Positions 5,761 to 62,948 of a stretch of 64,000 nt of DNA are shown piece after piece (within the stretch, counting starts at the first letter, position 1; every line of letters starts with the position of its first letter). The stretch is from an uncultured Lachnospiraceae bacterium (GTDB lineage Bacteria > Bacillota > Clostridia > Lachnospirales > Lachnospiraceae): contig CALWLH010000012.1 in assembly GCA_944381475.1 (NCBI GenBank), positions 1-64,000 on the forward strand, given 5' to 3'. The translations under genes were made by a program, and so were the position numbers. The notes beneath the pieces were generated by a model. It saw nothing but the letters and a program-made list of their open reading frames with translations. It searched no databases and had not been told where the DNA came from.

Positions 5761-7062
5761 ATGAGAATCGTTCAATTGACAGATGAGAGCAAGAAGAATC
5801 TGATGTCTGAGTTGATCAAGCGCAGTCCCAACTATTATCAGGAATATGCGGATACCGTTCAGGAGATTTTGGATAATGTCCGGGACAGAGGGGATGAGGC
5901 GGTATTTGAGTATACCCAAAAATTTGACGGGGCGGTGATCACGGCGGATACAATCCGCATTACACAGGAGGAGATCCAGGAGGCCATGGCACAGATCGAT
6001 CCGGCCCTTATGGAAACCATGAAGAGATCCCTGAATAACATCAGGGAATACCACGAAAAGCAAAAACAGTACAGCTGGTTTGACAGTAAGCCGGACGGCA
6101 GTATTCTGGGACAGAAGATCACCCCCATTGACAGCGTGGGCGTGTATGTTCCAGGAGGCAAGGCGGCTTACCCCTCCTCGGTGCTGATGAATATTATTCC
6201 TGCAAAGGTGGCAGGCGTGGGGAGAATCGTCATGACCACACCCTGCAACAGGGAGGGAAGGGTGAATCCTGCAACTCTGGCCGCAGCGTACCTGGCAGGC
6301 GCCACCGAGATGTATAAATGCGGCGGCGCCCAGGCTATCGGCGCCCTGGCCTTCGGCACAGAATCCATCCCGAAGGTGGATAAGATCGTTGGGCCGGGAA
6401 ATATTTATGTTGCCCTTGCCAAGAAGGCGGTTTACGGCTATGTGAGCATTGATTCTGTGGCAGGCCCCAGTGAAATAATGGTCATTGCCGATGAGACGGC
6501 AAATCCTCATTATCTGGGGGCGGATTTACTCAGCCAGGCGGAGCATGATGAGCTGGCCAGTGCGATATTGGTAACCACCAGCATGGAGCTGGCAGAGAAG
6601 GTCTCTGCTGAAACCGATGCCTTTATCGAAAAGCTTTCCAGGAAGGAGATTATCACGAAATCCCGGGACAATTACGGCTATATCCTGGTTGTGGATACCC
6701 TCCAGGAGGCCATCGACGCAGTGAACGAGATTGCTCCGGAGCATCTGGAGATTCTGACAAAAGACCCCTTCACTGTCATGACAAAGATCAGGAATGCGGG
6801 AGCCATGTTCCTGGGAGAGTATTCCAGCGAGCCTCTTGGAGATTATTTTGCGGGACCAAACCATGTGCTTCCAACAAACGGTACGGCGAAATTCTTTTCA
6901 CCACTGTCCGTTGACGATTATGTAAAGAAGTCCAGTATTATCTATTATACCCGCGAGGCCCTGGAGCCTATTCACGAGGATATTATCCGTTTTGCCAACA
7001 GCGAGCACTTAACAGCGCACGCCAATTCCATTGCCGTGCGGTTTGAAGAGCAGAAGAAATAA
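5761..7062 (+). CDS. hisD: Histidinol dehydrogenase
   Basis: HisD carries out the last two steps of histidine synthesis, oxidising L-histidinol to L-histidine with two NAD and a zinc ion. The 433-residue length is normal. The family signature runs through the segment starting GGAQAIGALAFGTESIP and the segment VGPGNIYVALAKK. The zinc and catalytic region has DLLSQAEHDE with its Gln and His, then the catalytic Glu-His pair in NEIAPEHLEI and the late SEHLTAHANSIAVR. A strong GGAGG precedes the ATG. A 206-base gap with an intergenic repeat separates it from hisA. Confidence 0.96.
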   Translation: MRIVQLTDESKKNLMSELIKRSPNYYQEYADTVQEILDNVRDRGDEAVFEYTQKFDGAVITADTIRITQEEIQEAMAQIDPALMETMKRSLNNIREYHEKQKQYSWFDSKPDGSILGQKITPIDSVGVYVPGGKAAYPSSVLMNIIPAKVAGVGRIVMTTPCNREGRVNPATLAAAYLAGATEMYKCGGAQAIGALAFGTESIPKVDKIVGPGNIYVALAKKAVYGYVSIDSVAGPSEIMVIADETANPHYLGADLLSQAEHDELASAILVTTSMELAEKVSAETDAFIEKLSRKEIITKSRDNYGYILVVDTLQEAIDAVNEIAPEHLEILTKDPFTVMTKIRNAGAMFLGEYSSEPLGDYFAGPNHVLPTNGTAKFFSPLSVDDYVKKSSIIYYTREALEPIHEDIIRFANSEHLTAHANSIAVRFEEQKK

Positions 7063-59412: not shown

Positions 59413-61230
59413 TTATTCTACTGTCACGGATTTTGCCAGGTTTCTGGGCATATCCACATCCAGTCCCCGCCCATAGGAGGTATAGTATGCAATAAGCTGC
59501 AGGACCACTGCCGCCGGGAATACGGAAAACAGATCATCCACCTCAGGAATAGTCAGCTGCTGCTGACAGATTTCCTCCGGAACCCTCAGATCCGCCTCGG
59601 TGATCAGGAGCACATATGCGCCTCTGGAGGACACTTCCTTTATATTGGAAATGGTTTTATTAAAAACCTTACGCTGTGTAGCGATGGCGATTACCGGAAT
59701 CCCCGGCGTAATCAGCGCGATGGTTCCGTGCTTCAACTCCCCGGCGGCATAGGCCTCCGCATGAATATAGCTGATTTCCTTGAGTTTTAAGGCGCCCTCC
59801 AGCGAAAGGGTATAATCGATGCCCCTTCCGATAAAAAACGCATCCTGGGCCTCTAAAAGGCATATGGAGGCATTCTGTATTTCCTCCCTGTTGTCCAGAA
59901 CCTGCTGGATAGCAGGGATCACATCAAGGAGATCTCCTATAAATTTTCTGGCTGCTTCCTCGGAAATACAGCCCTTTACCAGTCCGATCCGGCAGCCAAT
60001 CACATATAAAGTAGCGATCTGCACAGTATAAGCCTTTGTGGAGGCCACGGCGATTTCCGGACCTGCATGGGTATAGACCACATAATCGCTTTCACGGGCG
60101 ATTGTGGAGCCCTTTACATTCACCACGGAAAGGGTTTTGGCACCGTAGGATTTTGAAAGCCGCAGAGCCTCCAGGGTATCGATGGTTTCACCGGATTGGG
60201 AAACAGCGATGACCAAGGTGTGGGCATCAATGATAGGACTGTCATAGCGGTATTCGCTGGCAATGGAAACAGTCACAGGGATGCGCATCATGGGCTCCAC
60301 CATGGATTTAAAGATCATTCCCGCATGCATAGCCGTTCCGCAGGCAATCACGCGAATCTCGTGAATATCCTTTAATATCTCGTCGTCCACGCCATCGGAC
60401 AGAAGAGAGGGAAGTCCATCCTGAATACGGGGCATGACGGTGCCGCGGATTACCTCGGGCTGTTCCATGATTTCCTTCATCATGTAATGCTCGTAACCCC
60501 CCTTTTGTGCGGCCTCAATATTCCAGCTAACCGTTAAGCTTTCAGGCTTTGCCATCTGTCCATCAAGGGTTTCTACCTTTATATCATCCTTTGTCAGCGT
60601 CACAATATGGTATTCCGGAACGATGAAATATGTTTGTGAATATTGAATGATGGCGGTTAGGTCGGAAGCAATGATTGAACCATCTGCGAAGTGTGCCGCA
60701 ACCATGGGGCTCACATTCCTGATGGCAAAAATCTTATCCGGAACATCCTGAAACATGATGCAGAAAGCAAAAGAGCCAATCATATGCTTCATGGCCTGGC
60801 GGATCGCATAATATGGATCACCCTTATAAAAATGATTGATGACAGCGGCTGCAACTTCCGTATCTGTCTCGGACTTGACCATATGTTCCAGATTGAATTT
60901 TTCAATCAGCTCGTGATAGTTTTCTATAATTCCGTTATGGATCAGGGCTACACGGCCAACCAGATGCGGATGGGCATTTTCATCTGTCACACCTCCGTGG
61001 GTTGCCCATCTGGTATGTCCGATACCGCATGTAGAGGAGGAATCCAGATCCTCGCAAAACTGGCGAAGGGTTTCGACCTTTCCAGCCTTCTTGACGATTT
61101 GAAAAGGCTGATCCTTATATTGCAATGCAATGCCGGCGCTGTCATAGCCGCGGTATTCCAGTCTTGCAAGCCCATCAATCAGAAGCTTTTTTGCCTCAAT
61201 ATTTCCGGTAAAACCGATGATTCCACACAT
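59413..61230 (-). CDS. glmS: Glutamine-fructose-6-phosphate aminotransferase GlmS
   Basis: GlmS makes glucosamine-6-phosphate for the cell wall from fructose-6-phosphate and glutamine. The 605-residue product begins MCGIIGFTGN, with Cys2 as the glutaminase nucleophile. It has the GHTRWATHG loop and two SIS sugar-isomerase domains (VIAVSQSGETIDTLEALRLS and IGRGIDYTLSLEGALKLKEISY). It ends in RNLAKSVTVE, the typical C-terminal tail. AGGAGG precedes the ATG on the minus strand. I see no glmS ribozyme in the 400 bases upstream. Confidence 0.97.
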   Translation of the reverse strand: MCGIIGFTGNIEAKKLLIDGLARLEYRGYDSAGIALQYKDQPFQIVKKAGKVETLRQFCEDLDSSSTCGIGHTRWATHGGVTDENAHPHLVGRVALIHNGIIENYHELIEKFNLEHMVKSETDTEVAAAVINHFYKGDPYYAIRQAMKHMIGSFAFCIMFQDVPDKIFAIRNVSPMVAAHFADGSIIASDLTAIIQYSQTYFIVPEYHIVTLTKDDIKVETLDGQMAKPESLTVSWNIEAAQKGGYEHYMMKEIMEQPEVIRGTVMPRIQDGLPSLLSDGVDDEILKDIHEIRVIACGTAMHAGMIFKSMVEPMMRIPVTVSIASEYRYDSPIIDAHTLVIAVSQSGETIDTLEALRLSKSYGAKTLSVVNVKGSTIARESDYVVYTHAGPEIAVASTKAYTVQIATLYVIGCRIGLVKGCISEEAARKFIGDLLDVIPAIQQVLDNREEIQNASICLLEAQDAFFIGRGIDYTLSLEGALKLKEISYIHAEAYAAGELKHGTIALITPGIPVIAIATQRKVFNKTISNIKEVSSRGAYVLLITEADLRVPEEICQQQLTIPEVDDLFSVFPAAVVLQLIAYYTSYGRGLDVDMPRNLAKSVTVE

Positions 61231-61636
61231 AAATTAATCCTCCTGGGTCATCCTGATTTTTCATCTATGATTATGTTTCTAATTCTTTTTTTAGCACAAT
61301 TCAATCCGTGATATTAGGGGTCAAAAAAAACTTTTGACCCCAACATCTACTTGAGAAGTATATCATAAAACCAGGTGATTTACAAGCATTTGGTCGAGAG
61401 GGCTATTTTTCATGGCGCAAACTATTCGTTAAACCTGGGTTTTGCGAATAGTTTCTAATCGAATTTATATATCAGGTCATACTGCTCCCATAGCTGTTAG
61501 AATGTTGTAAAGCATATTTTTATCATACAGTATATGCTTGCAAAACACTTATAAATATGCTATGCTGGATGCCTGCCTTAAAATCATACAGAGCATCCCA
61601 TCATAACCCCCGCCTCACTTGCATAGGAGTATTTCC
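61231..61636. other. 406-base gene-free region with three hairpins
   Basis: No gene is supported here. Three inverted repeats stand out: GGGGTCAAAA/TTTTGACCCC (61317-61341), AAACTATTCG/CGAATAGTTT (61419-61428 with 61445-61454, with an inner AAAC/GTTT pair) and AAGCATAT/ATATGCTT (61510-61539). On the minus strand they form the glmS leader or upstream region. The third is closer to the gene at 61637. None has the T-run of a clear terminator. Confidence 0.6.
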
Positions 61637-62725
61637 ATGAAGGATTATAATCATATTGATTGTCATAATTCTGCGGAGAATTATCAAATTGAAAACGCTG
61701 AACATCCACATCGGTTTGGTAAAATCTTTACTGAGCCAGGTATTTCTGAAAGAAATCCCAAGCTTGTTCGCTGCTGCGAAATCTGCGGCTATGTGGAGGT
61801 CATCGGCATCATTGTGCAAAATCCCCAGTATACAAAGCCTTTTTATGACCGCCCCAGCAAAATTTCACCGGTGGTAAAACGACAGCTTTTCAGTTTGGGT
61901 GCCGCAGCTGCCTGCATAGGTTTTGCAGCCTATGGTATACACTTTATTTCAGATACTTTTTGCAGACCATGCCTGAAATCTCCTGGTACGTCTTCAAGGG
62001 ACGAAGCAAAATCAGCGTTTCAAAATGATTCAAGAAAACATTGGAATTACGAAACGTTGGCCGAAGCCACATATATAAAGGAAACAGAACCGAATAAGTT
62101 ACATATAGAGGAGACAGCACATACATGGAATACAATTGAAACGTTTTTAAGCTTGGAGTTTGAAACCGAAATAGCTACAGTAGAGGCGGCCCATGAAACT
62201 GAAAATCTCCCAGGTATCTTTATAGATGATAATCCTACAGCAGAAACGGATAAGGAGTCTCCCTCCTCTCCCGCCACCATCGGGTTTATGGATACAGAAG
62301 TTGAATGGCCCGCAGACATGGAGCATAGCATAACCTCGATAACTGATGCCGGTGAAACTGAGGGGCAGACGGCCATGGCCGGGTATCCGGCGAATACTTC
62401 TGAAACGGCAGCGTTTTCAATGGATACCGCTGTGACGGTCACGGCATCAGAGGATTATTCATGGCTTACAGGTGAACTTTTAAATGGAAAGGATATAATC
62501 CGGCTGATAGAATCCGGAGCGCCCGTGGAAATCATAACAAATTCCGGAAAAAAGCTTTGCGCGAATTGCTCTGTTAAGGGAGCTTCTCCTCTCTCGGACA
62601 GAAGTCAGATTCGGGAGACAGATTTATACACGGCGAACGTAACTGTGATTGATCATCAGCAGGTAATTGTACTTAATATTTTTGATAAATTTATTTTGGA
62701 AAAAGAAGATACGCAAAAGCGTTAA
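61637..62725 (+). CDS. Zinc-ribbon-like, single-TM protein with Thr/Glu-rich stalk; function unknown
   Basis: I do not recognise this 362-residue protein. The N-terminal part (1-75) has His and Cys residues (HIDCHNS, HPHRFG, RCCEICGYVEVIG) that could bind zinc. A single membrane helix follows at about 86-105 (LFSLGAAAACIGFAAYGIHF). Residues 110-280 are low in complexity, rich in Thr, Glu, Ser and Ala, like an extended external stalk. The C-terminal part (about 280-355, WLTGELLNGKDIIRLIESG and VTVIDHQQVIVLNIF) looks like a small folded domain. TAGGAG lies before ATG 61637. The coding strand seems ordinary in codon use, and the gene stands alone. Confidence 0.6.
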   Translation: MKDYNHIDCHNSAENYQIENAEHPHRFGKIFTEPGISERNPKLVRCCEICGYVEVIGIIVQNPQYTKPFYDRPSKISPVVKRQLFSLGAAAACIGFAAYGIHFISDTFCRPCLKSPGTSSRDEAKSAFQNDSRKHWNYETLAEATYIKETEPNKLHIEETAHTWNTIETFLSLEFETEIATVEAAHETENLPGIFIDDNPTAETDKESPSSPATIGFMDTEVEWPADMEHSITSITDAGETEGQTAMAGYPANTSETAAFSMDTAVTVTASEDYSWLTGELLNGKDIIRLIESGAPVEIITNSGKKLCANCSVKGASPLSDRSQIRETDLYTANVTVIDHQQVIVLNIFDKFILEKEDTQKR

Positions 62726-62916
62726 AGGGTTTGCGATTTTTTATTGTATTTTTAATCCGCTATGTATGGGAGGTTTCCCTCCCTATATATGAAGCAAAAG
62801 GCCCCTTGCGGATTTTCATTCCTCCGATGATATATACTATGTGGCCGGTTTCAAAAGGTGATTTTCAAATCAAAATGTGCTGCTGCTCTCCTGCGCTCAA
62901 AAAAAACTAAAAAACA

Positions 62917-62948
62917 TATAATAATACATAACAGCGTCAGGAGGAAAT
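62917..62948 (+). promoter_or_regulatory. Possible promoter and ribosome binding site of the ABC transporter
   Basis: A perfect TATAAT at 62917-62922 lies 26 bases before the ATG, but no good -35 is at 17 bases. AGGAGG (about 62939-62944) precedes the start. The upstream 200 bases have a GGGAGG/CCTCCC hairpin near 62770; I see no TPP or other riboswitch that I can name. Confidence 0.45.

Follow-up and report, generated by a model that had tools for sequence, protein, structure and literature searches.

A one-pass membrane protein with a probable zinc-ribbon head and two diverged relatives in a Lachnospiraceae genus

Introduction

What does a bacterial protein do that joins a cysteine- and histidine-rich head to a membrane helix, a long acidic stalk and a small terminal domain, and does it have kin? 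The question is raised by a gene near the end of a 64,000-nucleotide stretch of DNA from an uncultured Lachnospiraceae bacterium (CALWLH010000012.1, positions 1 to 64,000), here called the window. Sequence comparison establishes the gene, its layout, two relatives, one of which keeps the HxHxF...CxxC motif of the head, a homologous C-terminal domain and a stalk of near-constant length in the three members. What the protein does is discussed below in conditional terms.

Results

The reading frame and its name

The gene lies on the forward strand at 61637..62725, stop codon included, starts with ATG and encodes 362 amino acids; an AGGAG ribosome-binding site, read from the sequence, stands 7 bases before the ATG (61625..61629, forward strand). 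Not one of 2000 base shuffles of the region 61231-62948 contained an open frame of 362 codons. With the 16 other window genes as reference set, the codon index of the frame is 0.633, as compared with 0.539, 0.610 and 0.586 for the three alternative readings tried. This is the lowest value of the 17 window genes scored, the others ranging from 0.661 to 0.773, and the GC3 of the gene, 0.39, is also the lowest of the 17. The frame is thus a real 362-codon gene, and the layout given in a preliminary description of the locus (Cys/His-rich head, one helix, stalk and small terminal domain) was confirmed.

No naming match for the 362-aa protein was found in Pfam, NCBIfam, PHROGs, PADLOC or PDB sequences, none of the paper titles listed by a literature search dealt with a family of this kind, and Rfam gave no match at E<=1 across the gene or its flanking gaps. 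The preliminary description had been unable to name a family. The protein is nevertheless not an orphan, since two relatives were found.

Two relatives within the genus

We examined three other genomes of the genus, and two of them, RUI338 (G002) and UBA4292 (G003), both Lachnospiraceae, have one further member each. The order of parts is common to the three proteins: a Cys/His head, one helix, an acidic Thr/Glu stalk and a C-terminal domain. The RUI338 member is a 370-aa frame located 11 kb from obg that gave a weak score with the head (E 0.018), and the UBA4292 member, of 337 aa, gave a weak score with the full-length protein (E 4.3e-4). The members are 23% identical overall, stalk included. 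A ribosome-binding site is present in two of the three, the RUI338 copy having no clear site before either of its possible starts.

Searches of 61 and 299 genomes returned weak scores only. With a profile of the three C-terminal domains, a single member was detected in each of G000, G002 and G003, and G001, the remaining genome of the genus (76% complete), gave none; at E<=5, the four genomes gave the three members plus two chance frames. A pattern scan of 84,980 species with the three C-terminal domains gave 46 stretches, of which two, RUI338 and UBA4292, were confirmed; as the scan needs short conserved patterns and may omit the window's genome, distant members could be missed. Another profile (A2) matched 15 of 348 family genomes at E<=0.05, two of these being the members, and none of the 11 that were read among the other 13 looks related (L113 and L118 were left out). 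With the full window protein, we found 42 pattern stretches in genome contigs, in collections that may omit the window's genome, and 3 in viral contigs, none confirmed, and a best E of 4 against plasmids (tblastn). The C-terminal domain gave a best E of 0.05 against phages (tblastn), and in viral contigs neither the 99 stretches found with a C-terminal profile (A3) nor the 11 found with the UBA4292 protein were confirmed. As far as searched, the family is lineage-restricted and has so far been seen in one Lachnospiraceae genus only. The Obg protein encoded on the window contig shares 82, 81 and 75% identity with those of the three other genomes of the genus, and the contig thus fits its genome.

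The head and its probable zinc ribbon

Residues 1-84 form a head with eight Cys and His residues (H6, C9, H10, H23, H25, C46, C47 and C50). Within it lies a probable zinc ribbon, HPHRF...RCCEICGYVEVIGI (residues 23-58; 61703..61810, forward strand), whose likely ligands, judged from conservation in RUI338 and a three-strand model, are H23, H25, C47 and C50. The HxHxF-x19-CxxC arrangement is kept in the RUI338 relative, and the residues identical in the two heads are H23, H25, F27, C47, C50, Y52, E54, I56 and G57. The head plus helix are 26% identical between the window and RUI338, and none of 3000 shuffles scored as well as the two heads. The UBA4292 head gave no significant alignment, with 106 of 3000 shuffles as good against the window and 623 of 3000 against RUI338, and contains two HxF...CxxC units; as it cannot be aligned with confidence, conservation there is one of motif kind and not residue by residue. 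By these comparisons, the three members have the same kind of inner domain, and in two of them it is plainly homologous. Within the window, the pattern H.F.{8,24}C..C occurs in this frame alone among the 96 ATG-starting frames of at least 100 aa.

The preliminary description had tied its proposal of a zinc ribbon to conservation of the Cys and His residues, and this held in part: RUI338 keeps four of the eight in the head (H23, H25, C47 and C50) but not H6, C9, H10 and C46, nor the pairs C109/C112 in the stalk and C308/C311 in the terminal domain. A structure model of the head is of low confidence (pLDDT 58.9, pTM 0.35), with block means of pLDDT 64-80 for residues 21-60; it places strands at residues 27-33, 42-47 and 53-58, with the CxxC between the second and third. 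Zinc ribbons, as a fold class, are characterized by a three-stranded sheet, two metal knuckles and four Cys or His ligands. Foldseek searches with this model gave a best E of 0.57, which is not significant; NrdR entries made up nine of the 50 matches listed and ribosomal L44e one, both of which we take to be zinc-ribbon proteins. In VIA, NrdR accounted for four of the 23 matches listed, at Z 2.1-2.3 and below unrelated helices at 3.0. The zinc-ribbon guess has in its favor the HxHxF...CxxC of RUI338, the two HxF...CxxC units of UBA4292 and, in the low-confidence model, three strands round the CxxC, and we consider the head a probable zinc-binding ribbon.

Searching with the head at E<=0.1, we obtained matches in 34 of 299 family genomes, the own genome included. 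Two of these were useful, both in G002: the relative itself (C45:132714, E 0.018) and a protein of the same genus with many ribbons, against which the head scores weakly (E 6e-4 in that one genome). Such many-ribbon proteins of Lachnospiraceae (for example L068:5233-7176, reverse strand, 647 aa) resemble the head in their H-x-F...CxxCG ribbons but carry these in series, with a C-terminal helix and neither stalk nor terminal domain. The G002 protein shows many H-F...CxxCG repeats, and no Pfam family matches it above cut-off. A recurrent false lead was provided by matches at query positions 22-79 in frames of about 600-666 aa; the three that were read (L024-L026) look like threonyl-tRNA synthetases, which we presume them to be.

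Membrane helix and stalk

Hydropathy and modeling place a membrane helix at about residues 86-105 (61892..61951, forward strand), with a basic KR on the head side and an acidic stretch beyond. Its best 19-residue hydropathy is a weak 1.56, as compared with 3.12 and 2.38 in the relatives. In all three members, basic residues precede the helix and the acidic stalk follows it. The basic flank of a membrane helix lies in the cytosol by the positive-inside rule, and the head would therefore be cytosolic and the terminal domain outside; the one-pass topology with the head inside, as proposed earlier, fits the flanking charges of every member.

The stalk, acidic and of Thr/Glu/Ala/Ser-rich composition, covers residues 106-278 (61952..62470, forward strand) and consists of 15% Thr and 13% Glu. 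Its low complexity and a length of about 170 residues had been noted before, and we measured 173. The corresponding stalks of RUI338 and UBA4292 are 187 and 179 residues long, and the net charges of the three are -25, -36 and -24, respectively. Stalk length thus varies little, and this, together with the fast change of the protein described below, would suit a spacer that spans the wall in a surface protein.

The C-terminal domain

The terminal domain, GELLNGKDIIRLIESGAPVEIITNSG..., is a small alpha/beta domain that begins near residue 279, runs to residue 362 (62471..62722, forward strand) and contains LLNGKDIIRLIESG. It is 84 residues long in the window, 65 in RUI338 and 57 in UBA4292. In three leave-one-out tests, an HMM of any two sequences scored the third above 5000 of 5000 shuffles, and each of the three pairs beat 3000 of 3000 shuffles. 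These comparisons indicate that the outer domain is shared by descent in the three members; invariant columns are G1, G6, I10, L12, G16, N24 and G26, followed by D, Y, T and F. An AF2 model from the three sequences reached pLDDT 81 and pTM 0.68 in the best of five runs (pLDDT 72, 67, 46 and 46 in the others) and has the predicted order strand, helix, two short strands and two long strands. The model allowed no fold assignment against the PDB (best E 0.98), a viral fold library (best E 0.027, small phage proteins, TM 0.46) or VIA (best Z 3.4). A search with the domain gave matches in 13 of 299 genomes at E<=0.1, the own genome included; among the 12 others, we read six frames in full and one as an alignment, and none of these seven is related.

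Possible kinship with small proteins of Tad loci

The C-terminal domain might be derived from membrane proteins of about 150 aa that stand beside TadA-like ATPases in Lachnospiraceae, making the window protein an accessory of a Tad-type pilus. A consensus query for the small proteins brought up authentic examples in 24 of the 200 Lachnospiraceae genomes searched; their motifs are MENSLKG...VSGSEVxNVIRKF...YINP...FTQ. In the two loci that were read (G123 and G188), they adjoin ATPases whose best NCBIfam match, far below cut-off, is the TadA family. Examples are L155:6650-7099 and L156:5708-6148 and 6165-6620, and NCBIfam names neither of the two scanned.

A collinear profile match to the C-terminal domain was obtained by hhalign with 12 hand-picked small proteins of 29 (P 7.8e-4), and a profile of all 29 gave E 0.0016-0.0018, with none of 200 column shuffles as good in either mode. 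The hhalign probability, however, is only 25% for the 12-row subset and 6-15% for all 29, and tests with single sequences were mixed, shuffles being as good in 0 of 2923 cases for RUI338, 48 of 2994 for the window and 355 of 2976 for UBA4292. In the reverse test, 28 small proteins had a mean of 1.96, as compared with 0.71 for shuffles. The small proteins consist of an N-terminal helix and then the domain, without head or stalk, and their YINP..F.G motif is absent from the window domain. Moreover, a profile search of the window's genome found no such small protein at E<=1, and no tad gene was seen beside any member. A pilus accessory is therefore improbable, and the profile matches point to a possible kinship, not to membership. 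One of the small Tad-locus proteins gave 12 stretches in viral contigs, none confirmed. A 1295-codon frame in G002 (L158, G002:C15:57802) matches a profile of the small proteins (A5) at E 0.0028.

Genomic context and rate of change

The observation that the gene stands alone is correct: glmS lies upstream in divergent orientation and an ABC ATPase gene starts 223 bp downstream. The hairpin-rich gap described beside it applies to the upstream side, where folding of the glmS strand gave a z of -3.96, matched by 0 of 100 shuffles, and there are four pairs of inverted repeats. It does not apply to the downstream side, where one bulged hairpin is predicted (approximately 62762-62790), the z is -0.95 and the settings used revealed no inverted repeat.

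In RUI338 and UBA4292, the family gene occupies one orthologous place; the window copy is elsewhere, and no neighbor gene is common to all three. Upstream of the two relatives, on the other strand, are genes for a LuxR-type response regulator, a histidine kinase and a 7TM sensor, and downstream, also on the other strand, a permease gene; UBA4292 has one extra gene between the trio and the family gene, a putative glycosidase as we take it to be. Of the neighbors in these two genomes, the permease (81% identity) and the response regulator (74%) are the best kept, followed by the kinase at 44% and the 7TM sensor at 43%; the family proteins can be aligned over their last 65 residues only, at 32%. 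The kinase and the sensor are thus changing fast too, and the family protein is the fastest of these.

Discussion

Two related genomes share the layout of the window protein with very different letters, and it is therefore probably an envelope sensor or tether. The explanation that we favor, though with less than even confidence, is a fast-evolving trans-wall sensor or tether whose function we infer from sequence. The head would lie in the cytosol, folded round zinc, and a disordered stalk would cross the peptidoglycan and display the small C-terminal domain outside. One step further, the outer domain might meet a ligand or an envelope partner and the ribbon might bind a cytosolic protein; with an outer and an inner contact, the protein would act as a one-pass sensor or tether comparable to TcaA or RsgI.

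The most serious competitor, which we nonetheless regard as rather unlikely, is a plain display or adhesion protein, in which the ribbon serves only as a cap or anchor on the inside, the outer domain attaches to a glycan, the host or a neighbor cell, and no signal passes. Fast change is common among surface proteins, and this, together with an acidic Thr-rich stalk of steady length and neighbors that differ between the window and the relatives, is what such a protein would be expected to show; yet the head ligands and a CxYxExIG motif are kept between the window and RUI338, which is more than an inert cap needs. The neighbors of the relatives suggest another role, as an accessory of the two-component trio that stands divergently upstream in both. 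In RUI338, 75 bp separate the start of the family gene from the 7TM sensor gene, or 102 bp with the ATG as start, and UBA4292 has the same trio with a single gene between, but the trio has no tblastn match at E 1e-3 in the 64-kb window, and we give this role a low probability.

That the gene is decaying or barely used appears very unlikely: GC3 and codon index values that are the lowest among the 17 genes scored, the low identity of the members and the lack of a clear ribosome-binding site in RUI338 would agree with it, but the frame is open in three genomes, two of them have a ribosome-binding site, and the C-terminal domain is homologous. Least credible of all is a zinc-dependent anti-sigma factor, an idea raised in the preliminary description and favored by the topology only. 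The motif of the ZAS anti-sigma factors, HxxxCxxC, is absent from all three members, and neither Pfam nor NCBIfam gives an anti-sigma match. The same description had seen no adjacent sigma factor gene, and we likewise recognized none among the neighbors read, some of them named by eye, which are glmS and the ABC ATPase gene in the window and the two-component genes, the putative glycosidase and the permease in the relatives.

The sensor or tether that we favor has its closest parallels in TcaA of Staphylococcus aureus and the RsgI anti-sigma factors of Clostridium thermocellum. The domains of TcaA are contained in Pfam and NCBIfam and the RsgI N-terminal domain in Pfam; the window protein has no Pfam or NCBIfam match to TcaA sequence domains up to E 10 and no RsgI N-terminal domain in either library. 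TcaA has a predicted zinc finger inside, one membrane span and most of the protein outside (PMC10328498), and in these respects the window protein resembles it, differing in that its outside consists of a low-complexity stalk plus one small new domain. The RsgI factors have an inside N-terminal domain, a helix, a trans-wall region and an outside sensor (PMC12203970). The window protein, with a topology deduced from sequence, would share the inside domain, the single helix, the trans-wall region and the outside domain, but it has a ribbon-like head instead and no SigI gene was seen adjacent. By analogy, it would work most like TcaA and RsgI, and by the tests made it belongs to neither.

A more specific picture, and a distinctly doubtful one, is a novel one-pass relay in the envelope, in which the cytosolic output is the ribbon in place of an anti-sigma or kinase domain, the small new domain, once borrowed from membrane proteins of pilus loci, is kept beyond the wall by the stalk, and selection acts on the length of the stalk and not on its sequence. 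If the protein does signal, the trans-wall sensors known from Gram-positive bacteria would gain a variant with a zinc-ribbon output; if it does not, it would be an ordinary lineage-specific surface protein. In either case, an apparent orphan can belong to a family of layout, in which the order of parts, the stalk length and, in two of three members, the metal ligands outlast the sequence.

Observations at adjoining loci

We searched for glmS in 397 family genomes, of which 359 matched at 1e-150, and examined the 29 best among the foreign loci (L069-L097), none of which had a phmmer match to the window protein within 1.5 kb upstream of glmS. At four of them (L089, L091, L092 and L094), a divergent protein of 328-436 aa stands upstream of glmS, with a helix at its N-terminus and a tail of low complexity that is rich in Glu, Ala and Ser. 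By eye, the four resemble one another, and in phmmer they show no likeness to the window protein.

The glmS leader of the window (61231-61636, reverse strand) folds unusually well (z -3.96); GGGGTCAAAA...TTTTGACCCC stands at 61317-61341, and an inverted repeat of 17 nt lies at 61419-61454. Rfam detected no glmS ribozyme in it at E<=1, and of 19 related glmS loci that were scanned (L069-L087), 12 have the ribozyme family RF00234. The window glmS (59413-61230) reaches 66% identity with its counterparts in other genera and 48-49% with those of G002 and G001 in its own genus, where Obg is 81-82% identical. The sequences suggest either a replaced gene or two old lineages of glmS.

Just past the end of the window, on the same contig, the ABC permease gene that follows the window's ATPase gene (L065:1709-3553) ends early, BPD_transp_1 being matched to position 144 of 184, and near its end part of a serine recombinase, on the other strand, runs off the contig. 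A mobile element may sit in this permease gene.
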